In this document: positions 6,414-51,777 of the stretch, one piece after another
Position numbering within the stretch: position 1 is the stretch's first letter
How the letters are laid out: each line of letters opens with the position of its first letter
DNA from: Devosia sp. 1566
GTDB taxonomy: Bacteria > Pseudomonadota > Alphaproteobacteria > Rhizobiales > Devosiaceae
DNA: 64,000 nt
NCBI RefSeq assembly: GCF_004005995.1
Contig: NZ_CP034767.1
Coordinates: 2,418,001 to 2,482,000 of the forward strand
Direction of reading: 5' to 3'
Notes under the pieces: model-generated
What the model was told of the DNA's origin: nothing
Seen by the model: only the letters and a program-made list of their open reading frames with translations
The model's database searches: none
Translations under genes and position numbers: made by a program

Positions 6414-7364
6414 ATGCACGCCAAAGTCATCATCATCGGTTCGGGTCCGGCCGGCTACACCGCTGCAATCTACGCGGCGCGCGCCATGCTGGAGCCCGTG
6501 ATGATCCAGGGCATCCAGCCCGGTGGCCAGCTCACCATCACCACTGATGTTGAAAACTATCCCGGCTTTGCCGACGTCATCCAGGGCCCCTGGCTCATGG
6601 ACCAGATGCGCTCGCAGGCCGAACATGTCGGCACCCGCATCGTCAACGACGTGATCACCTCCGTCGATTTCGACCGCCGACCCTTTGTGCTCCACAGCGA
6701 CAGCGGCACCACCTACACCGCCGACAGCATCATCATCTGCACCGGTGCCCAGGCCAAGTGGCTGGGCCTGCCCTCCGAGCAGAAGTTCCAGGGCTTTGGC
6801 GTTTCCGCCTGCGCCACCTGCGATGGCTTTTTCTATCGCAACAAGGAAGTGGTCGTGGTCGGGGGCGGCAACACCGCAGTCGAGGAAGCGCTCTTCCTCA
6901 CCAACTTCGCCTCCAAGGTCATTCTCGTGCATCGCCGCAGCGAGTTCCGGGCCGAGCGGATCCTGCAGGATCGCCTGTTCAAGAACCCCAAGATCGAAGT
7001 GCGCTGGAACACCGAGATCGACGAAGTCCATGGCAGCGCCATGCCCCCTTCGGTCAACGCAGTGACCCTGCGCGACCTCAAGACCGGCCGCACCTATTCC
7101 CAGCCGATCGACGGCGTATTCGTCGCCATCGGTCACTCGCCCGCGACCTCGATCTTTGCCGGCAAGCTCGACATGAAGCCGGGCGGCTATCTGCAGGTCC
7201 AGCCCGGCACGACCCAGACCAACATCCCGGGCGTGTTTGCCGCCGGTGATGTCACCGACGACGTTTATCGCCAGGCCATCACTGCAGCGGGGATGGGCTG
7301 CATGGCCGCGCTCGATGCCGAACGGTTCCTGGCCGAACACGAACTCGCCGAAGCGGCGGAGTAG
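6414..7364 (+). CDS. trxB: Thioredoxin-disulfide reductase
   Basis: A 316-residue FAD/NADPH flavoenzyme that reduces thioredoxin. The FAD-binding GSGPAG is at 9-14, the redox-active CATC at C133-C136, the NADPH-binding GGGNTA at about 150-155, and the C-terminal second FAD motif GVFAAGDV. The length matches bacterial low-molecular-weight TrxB. The lsrB-like regulator gene follows 29 bases downstream on the same strand. Confidence 0.97.
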   Translation: MHAKVIIIGSGPAGYTAAIYAARAMLEPVMIQGIQPGGQLTITTDVENYPGFADVIQGPWLMDQMRSQAEHVGTRIVNDVITSVDFDRRPFVLHSDSGTTYTADSIIICTGAQAKWLGLPSEQKFQGFGVSACATCDGFFYRNKEVVVVGGGNTAVEEALFLTNFASKVILVHRRSEFRAERILQDRLFKNPKIEVRWNTEIDEVHGSAMPPSVNAVTLRDLKTGRTYSQPIDGVFVAIGHSPATSIFAGKLDMKPGGYLQVQPGTTQTNIPGVFAAGDVTDDVYRQAITAAGMGCMAALDAERFLAEHELAEAAE

Positions 7365-7393: not shown

Positions 7394-8290
7394 ATGCTCG
7401 ACTGGGACAAGCTCCGGATTTTTCACACCGCCGCAGAGTCGGGCAGTTTCACCCACGCCGCCGAAAAACTGGGAATGAGCCAATCGGCCGTCAGCCGCCA
7501 GATTTCGGCGCTTGAAGACGATCTTGGGCTTAAACTCTTTATCCGCCATGCCCGGGGCCTCGTCCTGACTGAGGTCGGCGAGCAGCTGTTCCGCACCGCC
7601 CACCGCATGCACTGGGAACTCCAGCAGGTGGAAACCCAGATGTCCGAATCCCAGGACGAGCCCACCGGCCCGCTGATCGTCACCACTACCGTGGGCATCG
7701 GCTCCACCTGGCTGTCCTCGCGCATCAACGAGTTCATCCGCCTGTATCCGCTGATCCAGCTCGAGATTCGTCTAAATGACGCCGAACTCGATCTGGCCAT
7801 GCGCGAAGCCGACGTCGCCATTCGCCTGCATCGTCCCAACCAGTCCGAGATGATCCAGCGCAAGCTGTTTACCGTGCATAACCACTTCTATGCCACGCCG
7901 GAATATCTCAGCGAGTTCGGCTCTCCCAACAGCCCCGAGCAACTCGACGATCATCGCATCATCAGCTTTGGCGAGCCGGTGCCTTCCTACCTGCCCGAGC
8001 TCAATTTCCTCGAGCGCATGGGCCGCAGCGATTCCAGCCCGCGCCGCGCTGTGCTCAAGGTCAATTCGATCTACGGCATGCTCCAGGCTTGCCAGGCCAG
8101 CATCGGCATCGCCATGCTGCCTGACTATGTCACCGAGCAGGAAGACGGCGGCCTCGTCCAGGTTCTGCCCGAAATCGAGCTGCCGGCCTATGAAGCATAC
8201 TTTGTTTACCCTCCCGCGCTGAAGAATTCCAAGCGCGTTGGCGTCTTCCGCGACTTCATCGTCGGCAAGGCGCGCGAGTGGAGCTTTTAG
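7394..8290 (+). CDS. LysR-type transcriptional regulator, LsrB/VtlR-like
   Basis: 298 residues. The N-terminal winged helix-turn-helix is clear (DWDKLRIFHTAAESGSFTHA, then MSQSAVSRQISALEDDLGLKLF), followed by a periplasmic-binding-protein-like effector domain. In Sinorhizobium, Agrobacterium and Brucella the LysR gene in this position after trxB is LsrB/VtlR, which controls oxidative-stress and envelope genes and, in Brucella and Agrobacterium, small RNAs. Assignment to that orthologue group rests on synteny and general similarity. Two small-RNA genes lie directly downstream. Confidence 0.85.
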   Translation: MLDWDKLRIFHTAAESGSFTHAAEKLGMSQSAVSRQISALEDDLGLKLFIRHARGLVLTEVGEQLFRTAHRMHWELQQVETQMSESQDEPTGPLIVTTTVGIGSTWLSSRINEFIRLYPLIQLEIRLNDAELDLAMREADVAIRLHRPNQSEMIQRKLFTVHNHFYATPEYLSEFGSPNSPEQLDDHRIISFGEPVPSYLPELNFLERMGRSDSSPRRAVLKVNSIYGMLQACQASIGIAMLPDYVTEQEDGGLVQVLPEIELPAYEAYFVYPPALKNSKRVGVFRDFIVGKAREWSF

Positions 8291-8548
8291 CGGGCGAACG
8301 CGTTCGTTGTTGGATGCGCCTTCCAAATACCCATCGCTGGGCGGACCTGCCCCGCCAGCGACACCGTCGGGGCCCCTACCCAGCTAACGCCCTGTCAGTC
8401 CCAAATATTTACGCGGAATGACGCTGCGCGCCCAGCGCAAGAATCGCGAATCTTTCTGCAGCACGCCGAGGGCCGCCGGCTCCAAGACCCACATTTGTGA
8501 TCGCGTAGCGCCTGCATGTGGCGCATGGCTGGCATGACCGATCGCGCA

Positions 8549-8577
8549 TTGCTGGCGGGACAGGTCTCCCTCATATT
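8549..8577 (+). promoter_or_regulatory. Predicted promoter of small RNA copy 1
   Basis: TTGCTG (8549-8554) and CATATT (8572-8577) separated by 17 bases, placing transcription start at about 8584, where a GTCGCTG block begins that is shared with the start of copy 2. The -10 match is weak. Confidence 0.45.
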
Positions 8578-8583
8578 GAACCC

Positions 8584-8770
8584 GTCGCTGAGGCGCGCTC
8601 CGAATCCTCCTCCCTCGGACCCCGCATCGCGACGCCGGATTTGGATCGATTCTCCTCCCTCGATCCCGGTCCATCGGTGAAGCGCTTTCCTCCTCCCTTG
8701 CGCTTCGCCATCACTATCGATTTGGCTTCGGCCCTATCATCAGCCCCATCTTCGGATGGGGCTTTTTTTT
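8584..8770 (+). ncRNA. Anti-Shine-Dalgarno (CCUCCUCCC-loop) small RNA, copy 1
   Basis: A transcript of about 187 bases is predicted with three consecutive hairpins, each showing a CU-rich anti-Shine-Dalgarno stretch in its loop. Hairpin 1 has stem TCCGA/TCGGA (8599-8619) around CCTCCTCCC (8606-8614). Hairpin 2 has stem GGATCGA/TCGATCC (8643-8666) around CTCCTCCC. Hairpin 3 has stem GAAGCGC/GCGCTTC (8679-8706) around CCTCCTCCC (8689-8697). A strong terminator closes it. This matches the cuckoo / CcsR / alpha-r14 class of alphaproteobacterial sRNAs by motif and architecture. Ends are estimates. Confidence 0.85.
8742..8770 (+). terminator. Intrinsic terminator of small RNA copy 1
   Basis: AGCCCCATC / GATGGGGCT stem with a UUCG tetraloop, then eight T in a row. 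It is nearly identical to the terminator of copy 2. Confidence 0.93.
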
Positions 8771-8870
8771 CGCCTGTTGCGGCGGGTTGCAACGCGGAGC
8801 AATGCGCCTGCTTATTTAGTGGACACATTGTCGCTGTGCCTAACGCATAGCTCCTATTCGCTCTTCCGCG

Positions 8871-8899
8871 TTGCACTAACTGATCGGGCTATCTATATA
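8871..8899 (+). promoter_or_regulatory. Predicted promoter of small RNA copy 2
   Basis: TTGCAC (8871-8876), a 17-base spacer and TATATA (8894-8899) make a good sigma-70-type promoter. Predicted start is about 8906, immediately before the GTCGCTG block shared by both copies. Confidence 0.65.
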
Positions 8900-8905
8900 C
8901 GTCCT

Positions 8906-9099
8906 TGTCGCTGCGACGCCGTCCGTTTCCTCCTCCCTCGGACCTGCGTTGCCCGACACCGGGTTCAAGCCGTATCCTCCTCCCTCGGCTTGGGTCCACC
9001 CGGTCCGGCGCATCTCCTCCTCCCTTGCGCGGGACCATTACTAGCGATTTGGCTTCGGCCCTATCCATGGCCCCATCTTCGGATGGGGCCCTTTTTTTT
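8906..9099 (+). ncRNA. Anti-Shine-Dalgarno (CCUCCUCCC-loop) small RNA, copy 2
   Basis: A second gene of the same design. Hairpin 1 is GTCCG/CGGAC (8921-8943) around CCTCCTCCC (8929-8937). Hairpin 2 is CAAGCCG/CGGCTTG (8966-8992) around CCTCCTCCC (8976-8984). Hairpin 3 is GGTCC-g-GCGCA/TGCGC-g-GGACC (9002-9036) around CCTCCTCCC (9016-9024). The stems differ in sequence from copy 1 while base pairing and loop motifs are kept, which argues strongly for a selected RNA structure. The tail GCGATTTGGCTTCGGCCCTATC and terminator resemble those of copy 1. Confidence 0.87.
9069..9099 (+). terminator. Intrinsic terminator of small RNA copy 2
   Basis: GGCCCCATC / GATGGGGCC stem, UUCG tetraloop, then eight T. 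It also separates this transcript from the convergent aminotransferase gene. Confidence 0.93.
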
Positions 9100-9164
9100 G
9101 CCCCACCCGCTTCGTTGATCGCTAGGGCGCCAGCACTAGCCGGCACCCCCACAACTCTTTTGGT

Positions 9165-10370
<1,206 letters not shown>

Positions 10371-51632: not shown

Positions 51633-51777
51633 ATTAACTGGGCGGCATCCTGCCGCACCGGGTTGAACTTTTCGCCGCATTTGCGCATTCTTGCTGTGCG
51701 GCGCCGGGCCCCTCTGGTCATAGTTCCCTATGGCGATGTCGGAGCTGCTCCAATGTTCACATGGAGATGGTCCGGCG

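Follow-up and report, generated by a model that had tools for sequence, protein, structure and literature searches.

Three-loop anti-Shine-Dalgarno sRNA units in tandem beside lsrB in Devosia, a probable variant of the NfeR1/AbcR-type system

Which small RNAs stand behind lsrB in Devosia, what might switch them on, and which messages might their loops meet? In Agrobacterium the genes follow one another as trxB-vtlR-abcR1-abcR2 (PMC7486931), and lsrB and trxB are described as sharing one operon in the Rhizobiales (PMC11975290). In the window (the whole stretch of DNA analysed, 64,000 nt from Devosia sp. 1566), trxB lies immediately 5' of lsrB, as in the lsrB-trxB operon, and the best solved relative of the regulator, 9HH1, is the deposited LsrB of Agrobacterium tumefaciens (PMC11975290). 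The gap between lsrB and an aspartate aminotransferase-like gene measures 874 nt (8291-9164) and holds two sRNA units in direct orientation, on the same strand (Table 1). Judged by gene order, the pair occupies the place where Agrobacterium has AbcR1 and AbcR2, that is, the lsrB-AbcR locus.

Table 1. Coordinates of the features at the lsrB locus, counted from the first letter of the window
Feature	Position	Strand	Basis or remark
trxB, thioredoxin reductase	6414..7364	+	TIGR01292, 411.7 bits, above cut-off
lsrB/vtlR ortholog, LysR-type regulator	7394..8290	+	best solved relative 9HH1, 368.2 bits, residues 2-298
Unit 1 LsrB/VtlR box: TGCA-N6-GCAT (8513-8526) overlapping GCAT-N3-TG-N3-T (8523-8535)	8513..8535	+	sequence
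Unit 1 sigma-70-like promoter, TTGCTG-N17-CATATT	8549..8577	+	read by eye; inferred
sRNA unit 1, 187 nt	8584..8770	+	start inferred from promoter and shared GTCGCTG; fold z -6.16
Unit 1 hairpin I, motif CCUCCUCCC 8606-8614	8584..8633	+	sequence and fold
Unit 1 hairpin II, loop CUCCUCCC 8652-8659	8637..8672	+	sequence and fold
Unit 1 hairpin III, loop CCUCCUCCC 8689-8697	8676..8709	+	sequence and fold
Unit 1 conserved mini-hairpin GAUUUGGCUUCGGCCCUAUC, 20 nt	8719..8738	+	fold; missing from 1/37 rows of alignment A1
Unit 1 terminator, UUCG loop, 8 T at 8763-8770	8742..8770	+	fold and sequence
Unit 2 LsrB-like box, core 8845-8857 GCATAGCTCCTAT	8835..8857	+	one mismatch to GCAT-N3-TG-N3-T
Unit 2 sigma-70-like promoter, TTGCAC-N16-CTATAT	8871..8898	+	read by eye; inferred
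sRNA unit 2, 193 nt	8907..9099	+	start inferred; fold z -5.80
Unit 2 hairpin I, loop CCUCCUCCC 8929-8937	8906..8958	+	fold opens one base before inferred start
Unit 2 hairpin II, loop CCUCCUCCC 8976-8984	8961..9001	+	sequence and fold
Unit 2 hairpin III, loop CCUCCUCCC 9016-9024	9002..9036	+	sequence and fold
Unit 2 conserved mini-hairpin GAUUUGGCUUCGGCCCUAUC, 20 nt	9046..9065	+	fold; divergent in 2/36 rows of alignment A2
Unit 2 terminator, UUCG loop, 8 T at 9092-9099	9069..9099	+	fold and sequence
Aspartate aminotransferase-like gene	9165-10367	-	other flank of the sRNA gap

Anatomy, covariation and spread of the two units

The first-pass annotation, made from the letters alone, had noted that a listing of coding genes would leave about 870 bases blank here, and the measured gap bears this out. 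Pfam gave no family match, DUF1127 included, at E values up to 1 for 14 of the 16 listed gap frames of at least 30 aa, and base-pair covariation accounts for the conservation; a protein-coding reading of the gap was rejected on these grounds. The annotation's two tandem units with three anti-Shine-Dalgarno (anti-SD) hairpins each were recovered, with CTCCTCCC at 8607, 8652, 8690, 8930, 8977 and 9017. These are six of the eight matches in the window, for the whole of which the chance mean is 3.44, and five of the six loop motifs in the pair are CCTCCTCCC. The proposed UUCG-loop terminators with eight T were likewise confirmed, ending at 8770 and 9099. The shared GTCGCTG start was correctly placed at 8584, but its second copy begins at 8907 and not, as had been given, one base earlier at 8906. 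That all six stems pair in full was an overstatement, since the folds have internal mismatches or bulges in several of them, and the annotation did not mention the lsrB neighbour, the LsrB-type boxes or the conserved mini-hairpin in each unit. None of 200 shuffles folds as well as either unit (z scores in Table 1). Elsewhere in the window, a terC RNA (RF03067) at 51696-51751, with 54 bits, is the sole Rfam match above cut-off.

Covariation of the stems in relatives, on which the annotation had staked its own reading, was found in both units. Unit 1 was aligned from 37 sequences (alignment A1, the window plus 36 of 51 listed units) and unit 2 from 36 (alignment A2, the window plus 35 of 52 listed units), taken from Devosia and near MAGs. 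Near-duplicates and ten loci outside Devosia by name were omitted by hand, as were, from A2, L140 and one of the two L152 rows, so that the covariation is demonstrated solely within Devosia and its near MAGs. Both-sided changes occur in 19 of 37 pairs of unit 1 (shuffled mean 8.8) and in 25 of 43 pairs of unit 2 (shuffled mean 15.1), counts that 0 of 500 shuffles reach in either case. Cells able to pair make up 97.1% of the unit 1 alignment and 95.9% of the unit 2 alignment, and pairing drops to 25-54% once partners are slid by 1-3 columns, a control in which the structures are favoured by having been derived from the same alignments. The RNA structure of the units is under selection.

The homology of the two units follows from a covariance model (R1) trained on unit 2 sequences, which gives the window's unit 1 163.7 bits; unit 2, whose own sequence is in the model alignment, scores 201.4 bits. 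In a tree of 102 units, comprising the window and loci with exactly two triples of the motif, the nearest neighbour has the same unit number in 97, which speaks against a simple recent duplication. Neither unit class is cleanly monophyletic, and the two copies of a locus are nearest each other in Arsenicitalea and the MAG L140. From the tree, the two genes are for the most part old paralogs, and the pair mostly predates the species. A genome-wide search for the further copies that the annotation had envisaged returned only two ar14 hits, both of them this pair, and the other six TCCTCCTCCC matches in the genome are single and scattered.

Of the 37 genus genomes, 36 show the triple-motif pattern and 35 have at least two copies, with none in the reversed-pattern controls; it matches 2 of 24 genomes of other families. 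G033, the sole genus genome lacking the pattern, likewise returned no match to lsrB at E 1e-60. Most named relatives of the window's LsrB come from Devosia; in one Devosia MAG the protein is identical. From the best 80 of 146 named lsrB loci, five were set aside because less than 2 kb of sequence follows the gene; of the remaining 75, 66 are followed by at least one triple and 50 by at least two, and no exact triple was found downstream in nine. Triples also lie downstream of lsrB in Pelagibacterium and Arsenicitalea, placed by NCBI with Devosia in the Devosiaceae. A model search of 297 genomes of the order matched 35 at E 1e-4, under strict filters and with eight candidates scored per genome, so that weak matches may be missed. 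Every match above 51 bits belongs to the family of the window; weaker matches, at about 30-51 bits in 22 genomes from other families, may be related alpha-r14 RNAs. At 18 lsrB loci of other families R1 found no match, and Rfam, run on 12 of these, found nothing reaching E 0.05 in 11; the adjacency of lsrB and sRNA is therefore not universal in the order.

Some loci depart from the pair in number. L152 (Devosia sp. N26CT) and L057 (G016) carry three triple-loop units at the lsrB locus, not two, and their identical unit spacings mean that they are probably the same or sister genomes. At 3492-3791 of L053 (G045:C6:917491-917790), eight CTCCTCCC motifs follow one another at intervals of 34-49 nt, most of them in the loops of predicted hairpins, an array exceeding the loop number of every sRNA discussed in the Devosia analysis. 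The start of the gene after it resembles that of trmFO.

Promoter boxes and the LsrB regulator

The proposed LsrB/VtlR box is GCAT-N3-TG-N3-T (PMC7486931), which lies at -61..-49 in S. meliloti abcR1 (PMC8844928), and LsrB activates NfeR1 through TGCA-N6-GCAT at about -72 to -57 (PMC10746234). Unit 1 has an exact copy of each. Its GCAT-N3-TG-N3-T falls at -61..-49, the position in S. meliloti PabcR1, a match that depends on the inferred start; TGCA-N6-GCAT falls at -71..-58 from the same start, and unit 2 keeps only its GCAT. The distance from box to first loop motif is 84 nt in unit 1 and 85 nt in unit 2. In the genome as a whole there are six exact copies of GCATRGCTGVCAT, of which one precedes an sRNA unit (unit 1) and the other five lie inside frames of 184-797 codons, and 85 further matches with one mismatch. 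Taken in all, one-mismatch matches number 91 against 7 for a reversed control that may be compositionally unfair.

The box might be a leftover of the ancestral locus, with the units mainly under another factor. The imperfect box of unit 2 would fit this, as would S. meliloti AbcR2, which at the same locus is transcribed under RpoH1, not LsrB (PMC8844928). Against it stands the retention of box and spacing in many species. The strict box is found in the expected stretch of 88 of the 117 triple units at the named loci, as against 198 of 23,400 random windows (0.85%), and is absent from 29; a looser, data-derived form lies 82-87 nt before the first motif in 101 of the 117. Before unit 1 the strict form occurs in 32 of 36 Devosia genomes and the looser form, drawn from the alignment, in all 36. 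A leftover box is thus unlikely, and control of the pair by LsrB remains the preferred reading.

The signal to which such an LsrB would respond may differ from that in Agrobacterium, where C144/C273 and C236/C244 are the proposed redox-sensing cysteine pairs and C273 is required for peroxide resistance (PMC11975290). The LsrB of the window has a single cysteine, aligned to C236, with V, M and V opposite C144, C244 and C273. Among 77 full-length named orthologs, counted without L204 (cut) and the shorter frames L195 and L207, 24 have no cysteine, 51 have one and two have two. As the pairs are missing, disulfide sensing of the Agrobacterium type is unlikely in the window's LsrB, and a nutrient signal seems a likelier trigger than oxidants in this species.

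Predicted targets and proposed mode of action

The best explanation of the locus, and in our judgement a probable one, is that the pair encodes LsrB-activated, trans-acting sRNAs of the NfeR1/AbcR type that silence uptake mRNAs by loop pairing. LsrB would bind about 60 bp upstream of the start and activate each unit's own promoter. The two sRNAs would be transcribed separately, each presenting three near-identical CUCCUCCC loops on covarying stems, and a loop would pair with the GGGAGGAG-like Shine-Dalgarno site of a target mRNA, blocking ribosome loading. Targets would be chiefly ABC and other solute-uptake mRNAs, and three loops in each of two genes would supply both dose and redundancy.

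Candidate targets were sought through the perfect loop complement GGGAGGAG, which lies 3-10 nt before an ATG at 20 places in the window's own genome, compared with three for the reversed control. Scans of open frames of at least 100 aa gave 10 proteins from 11 rows in this genome (two rows being one gene), and Pfam finds ABC-transporter domains in six of them. In two other Devosia, 11 of 26 genes with the site have such domains and three more are TRAP/TTT parts (26 of 28 were scanned, leaving out L292, antisense to the sRNA, and L316). The control site AAAGGAGA yielded one ABC-transporter gene in 10 (10 of 11 proteins, without the 102-aa L263). Against this control the excess is marginal by Fisher's test (p 0.057 for 6/10 and p 0.064 for 17/36, each vs 1/10), the binomial values are low only if backgrounds of 8-15% are assumed, and the window's own genome encodes no fewer than 150 permease domains (of 170 candidates, 150 scored). 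One of the six ABC genes, L245, probably has its true start about 40 codons downstream, at a signal-like MKRRTF, which would leave 5 of 10 instead of 6 of 10. The wealth of transport genes among the complements agrees with AbcR/NfeR1-like targeting and stops short of proving mRNA silencing.

The six loops could also act as decoys or sponges, mimicking the 16S rRNA tail to titrate a protein or a ribosome factor and not pairing with mRNAs at all. Repeated loops suit a sponge, and the sRNA loop resembles the anti-SD tail of 16S rRNA. That transport genes turn up among the perfect complements speaks for mRNA pairing, although the statistics are marginal. Moreover, NfeR1 silencing is abolished when its three motifs are mutated (PMC10746234), and the chances of a pure decoy look slim beside those of mRNA silencing by LsrB-activated sRNAs.

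It is most improbable that the units are CcsR-like RNAs, belonging to a heat/singlet-oxygen cluster that is transcribed as a unit under RpoH and whose maturation involves a DUF1127 protein: they share tandem arrangement and CCUCCUCCC loops with CcsR1-4/cuckoo/CIN1 (RF02791), and CcsR1 matches them at 29.9 and 29.2 bits, but these scores lie far below the cut-off of 65.3, each unit has a promoter-like element, box and terminator of its own, and CcsR RNAs are co-transcribed with ccaF1 (PMC10253847) while no DUF1127 match came from the gap, of whose 16 listed frames 14 were scanned. Membership of CcsR/CIN1 was rejected on the scores and the DUF1127 result. The link to heat and singlet oxygen drawn in the first-pass annotation is not supported, given the sigma-70-like promoter and LsrB-type box of each unit and the single-cysteine LsrB.

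Comparison with AbcR and NfeR1

A third gene bears on the comparison. In 34 of 36 Devosia genomes the stretch from lsrB to unit 1 contains an additional sRNA-like unit (unit 0, motif GCG[TG]TCCCTCC), for which the alignment usually shows a separate box. Eight folded copies have a first hairpin loop of CUCCUCCC type, a linear UUCCCUCC and a terminator, a layout close to that of AbcR, with its loop CUCCUCCC and linear UUCCCCUC (PMC8844928). Rfam on one copy gave ar14 (32.7 bits) and suhB (28.3 bits) as best matches, both below cut-off, and not ar15, so that unit 0 is called AbcR-like for its layout and position. It is absent from the locus in the window species and its near twin G017, the only two such cases among the 36. 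A relocated AbcR gene was considered and rejected, as the genome has no ar15 match and the other five exact boxes sit in long frames; a relocated unit 0 without an exact box may exist, because the ar15 model is blind to unit 0 as well. In G058, from another family, an ar15 pair directly follows lsrB and six ar14 copies score above cut-off elsewhere. This genome (L054, L055, L056, L112, L116) also has a third ar15, making a large anti-SD sRNA set. The Devosia locus thus unites elements that are separate in G058.

A wider picture is conceivable, and we offer it tentatively. LsrB may drive an array of two to three anti-SD sRNAs in the Devosiaceae, with NfeR1-type RNAs sharing the AbcR job; in the window species the AbcR-like gene would have gone, the three-loop pair would have taken over completely, and an LsrB without redox cysteine pairs would probably sense a nutrient, not oxidants. 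NfeR1 and AbcR count as distinct sRNA families, even if their targets overlap and they share an activator. NfeR1-shaped RNAs that occupy the place of AbcR and lie behind its promoter box, in a species from which the AbcR-like gene next to them in most Devosia is missing, would amount to a natural replacement experiment and offer a clean test of loop number versus gene context as the setter of the regulon. The window species also allows LsrB signalling to be tested without cysteine pairs, and the pair marks RNAs overlooked by the Rfam ar14 cut-off in all 37 Devosia genomes searched. Among the matches listed in a literature search, which left subscription papers mostly uncovered, no paper joined Devosia with AbcR, NfeR1 or LsrB.

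The Rfam model search that the annotation had recommended did yield ar14 and CcsR1 matches, all of them below threshold. For ar14 (RF02344) the units score 38.6 and 37.1 bits against a cut-off of 58.8, and none of the 37 Devosia genomes rises above it (best 50.1). Together with anatomy and covariation, and weakly with the predicted targets, these sub-threshold matches support the annotation's central proposal of an alpha-r14/cuckoo-type anti-SD tandem pair acting on ribosome sites.

The alpha-r14/NfeR1 RNAs have three CCUCCUCCC hairpins with variable stems, and S. meliloti NfeR1, with three anti-SD loops, is activated by LsrB and silences through pairing of loop and ribosome site (PMC10746234). 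Hfq-independent mRNA silencing is a further mark of this family. The Devosia units resemble them in their three hairpins with unpaired CCUCCUCCC (one of the six being CUCCUCCC), in highly variable stems and in an LsrB-type box about 60-70 nt upstream, and R1 detects three ar14 members of G058 (30.4-43.4 bits). However, they are longer (187 and 193 nt from inferred start to terminator vs 115-123), carry an extra conserved UUCG mini-hairpin and stand in tandem beside lsrB. With AbcR1/AbcR2 (alpha-r15, RF02345) the pair shares the tandem position directly 3' of trxB-lsrB(vtlR), the same box in unit 1, equally far from the inferred start, an anti-SD loop and, as predicted in Devosia, ABC-transporter targets. 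In contrast to the single loop CUCCUCCC of the 5' hairpin (aSD1) plus linear aSD2 UUCCCCUC of AbcR, it has three hairpin motifs per unit, and the sequence and folds of both units are free of the linear aSD2 between stem-loops; ar15 has no match in G000, none in any of the 37 Devosia genomes, and none in 8291-9164 at E 5. Since a tested feature fails for each, the pair is not classed with ar14, ar15 or CcsR1. It is probably a Devosiaceae variant of the NfeR1/AbcR-type system known from root-nodule bacteria.
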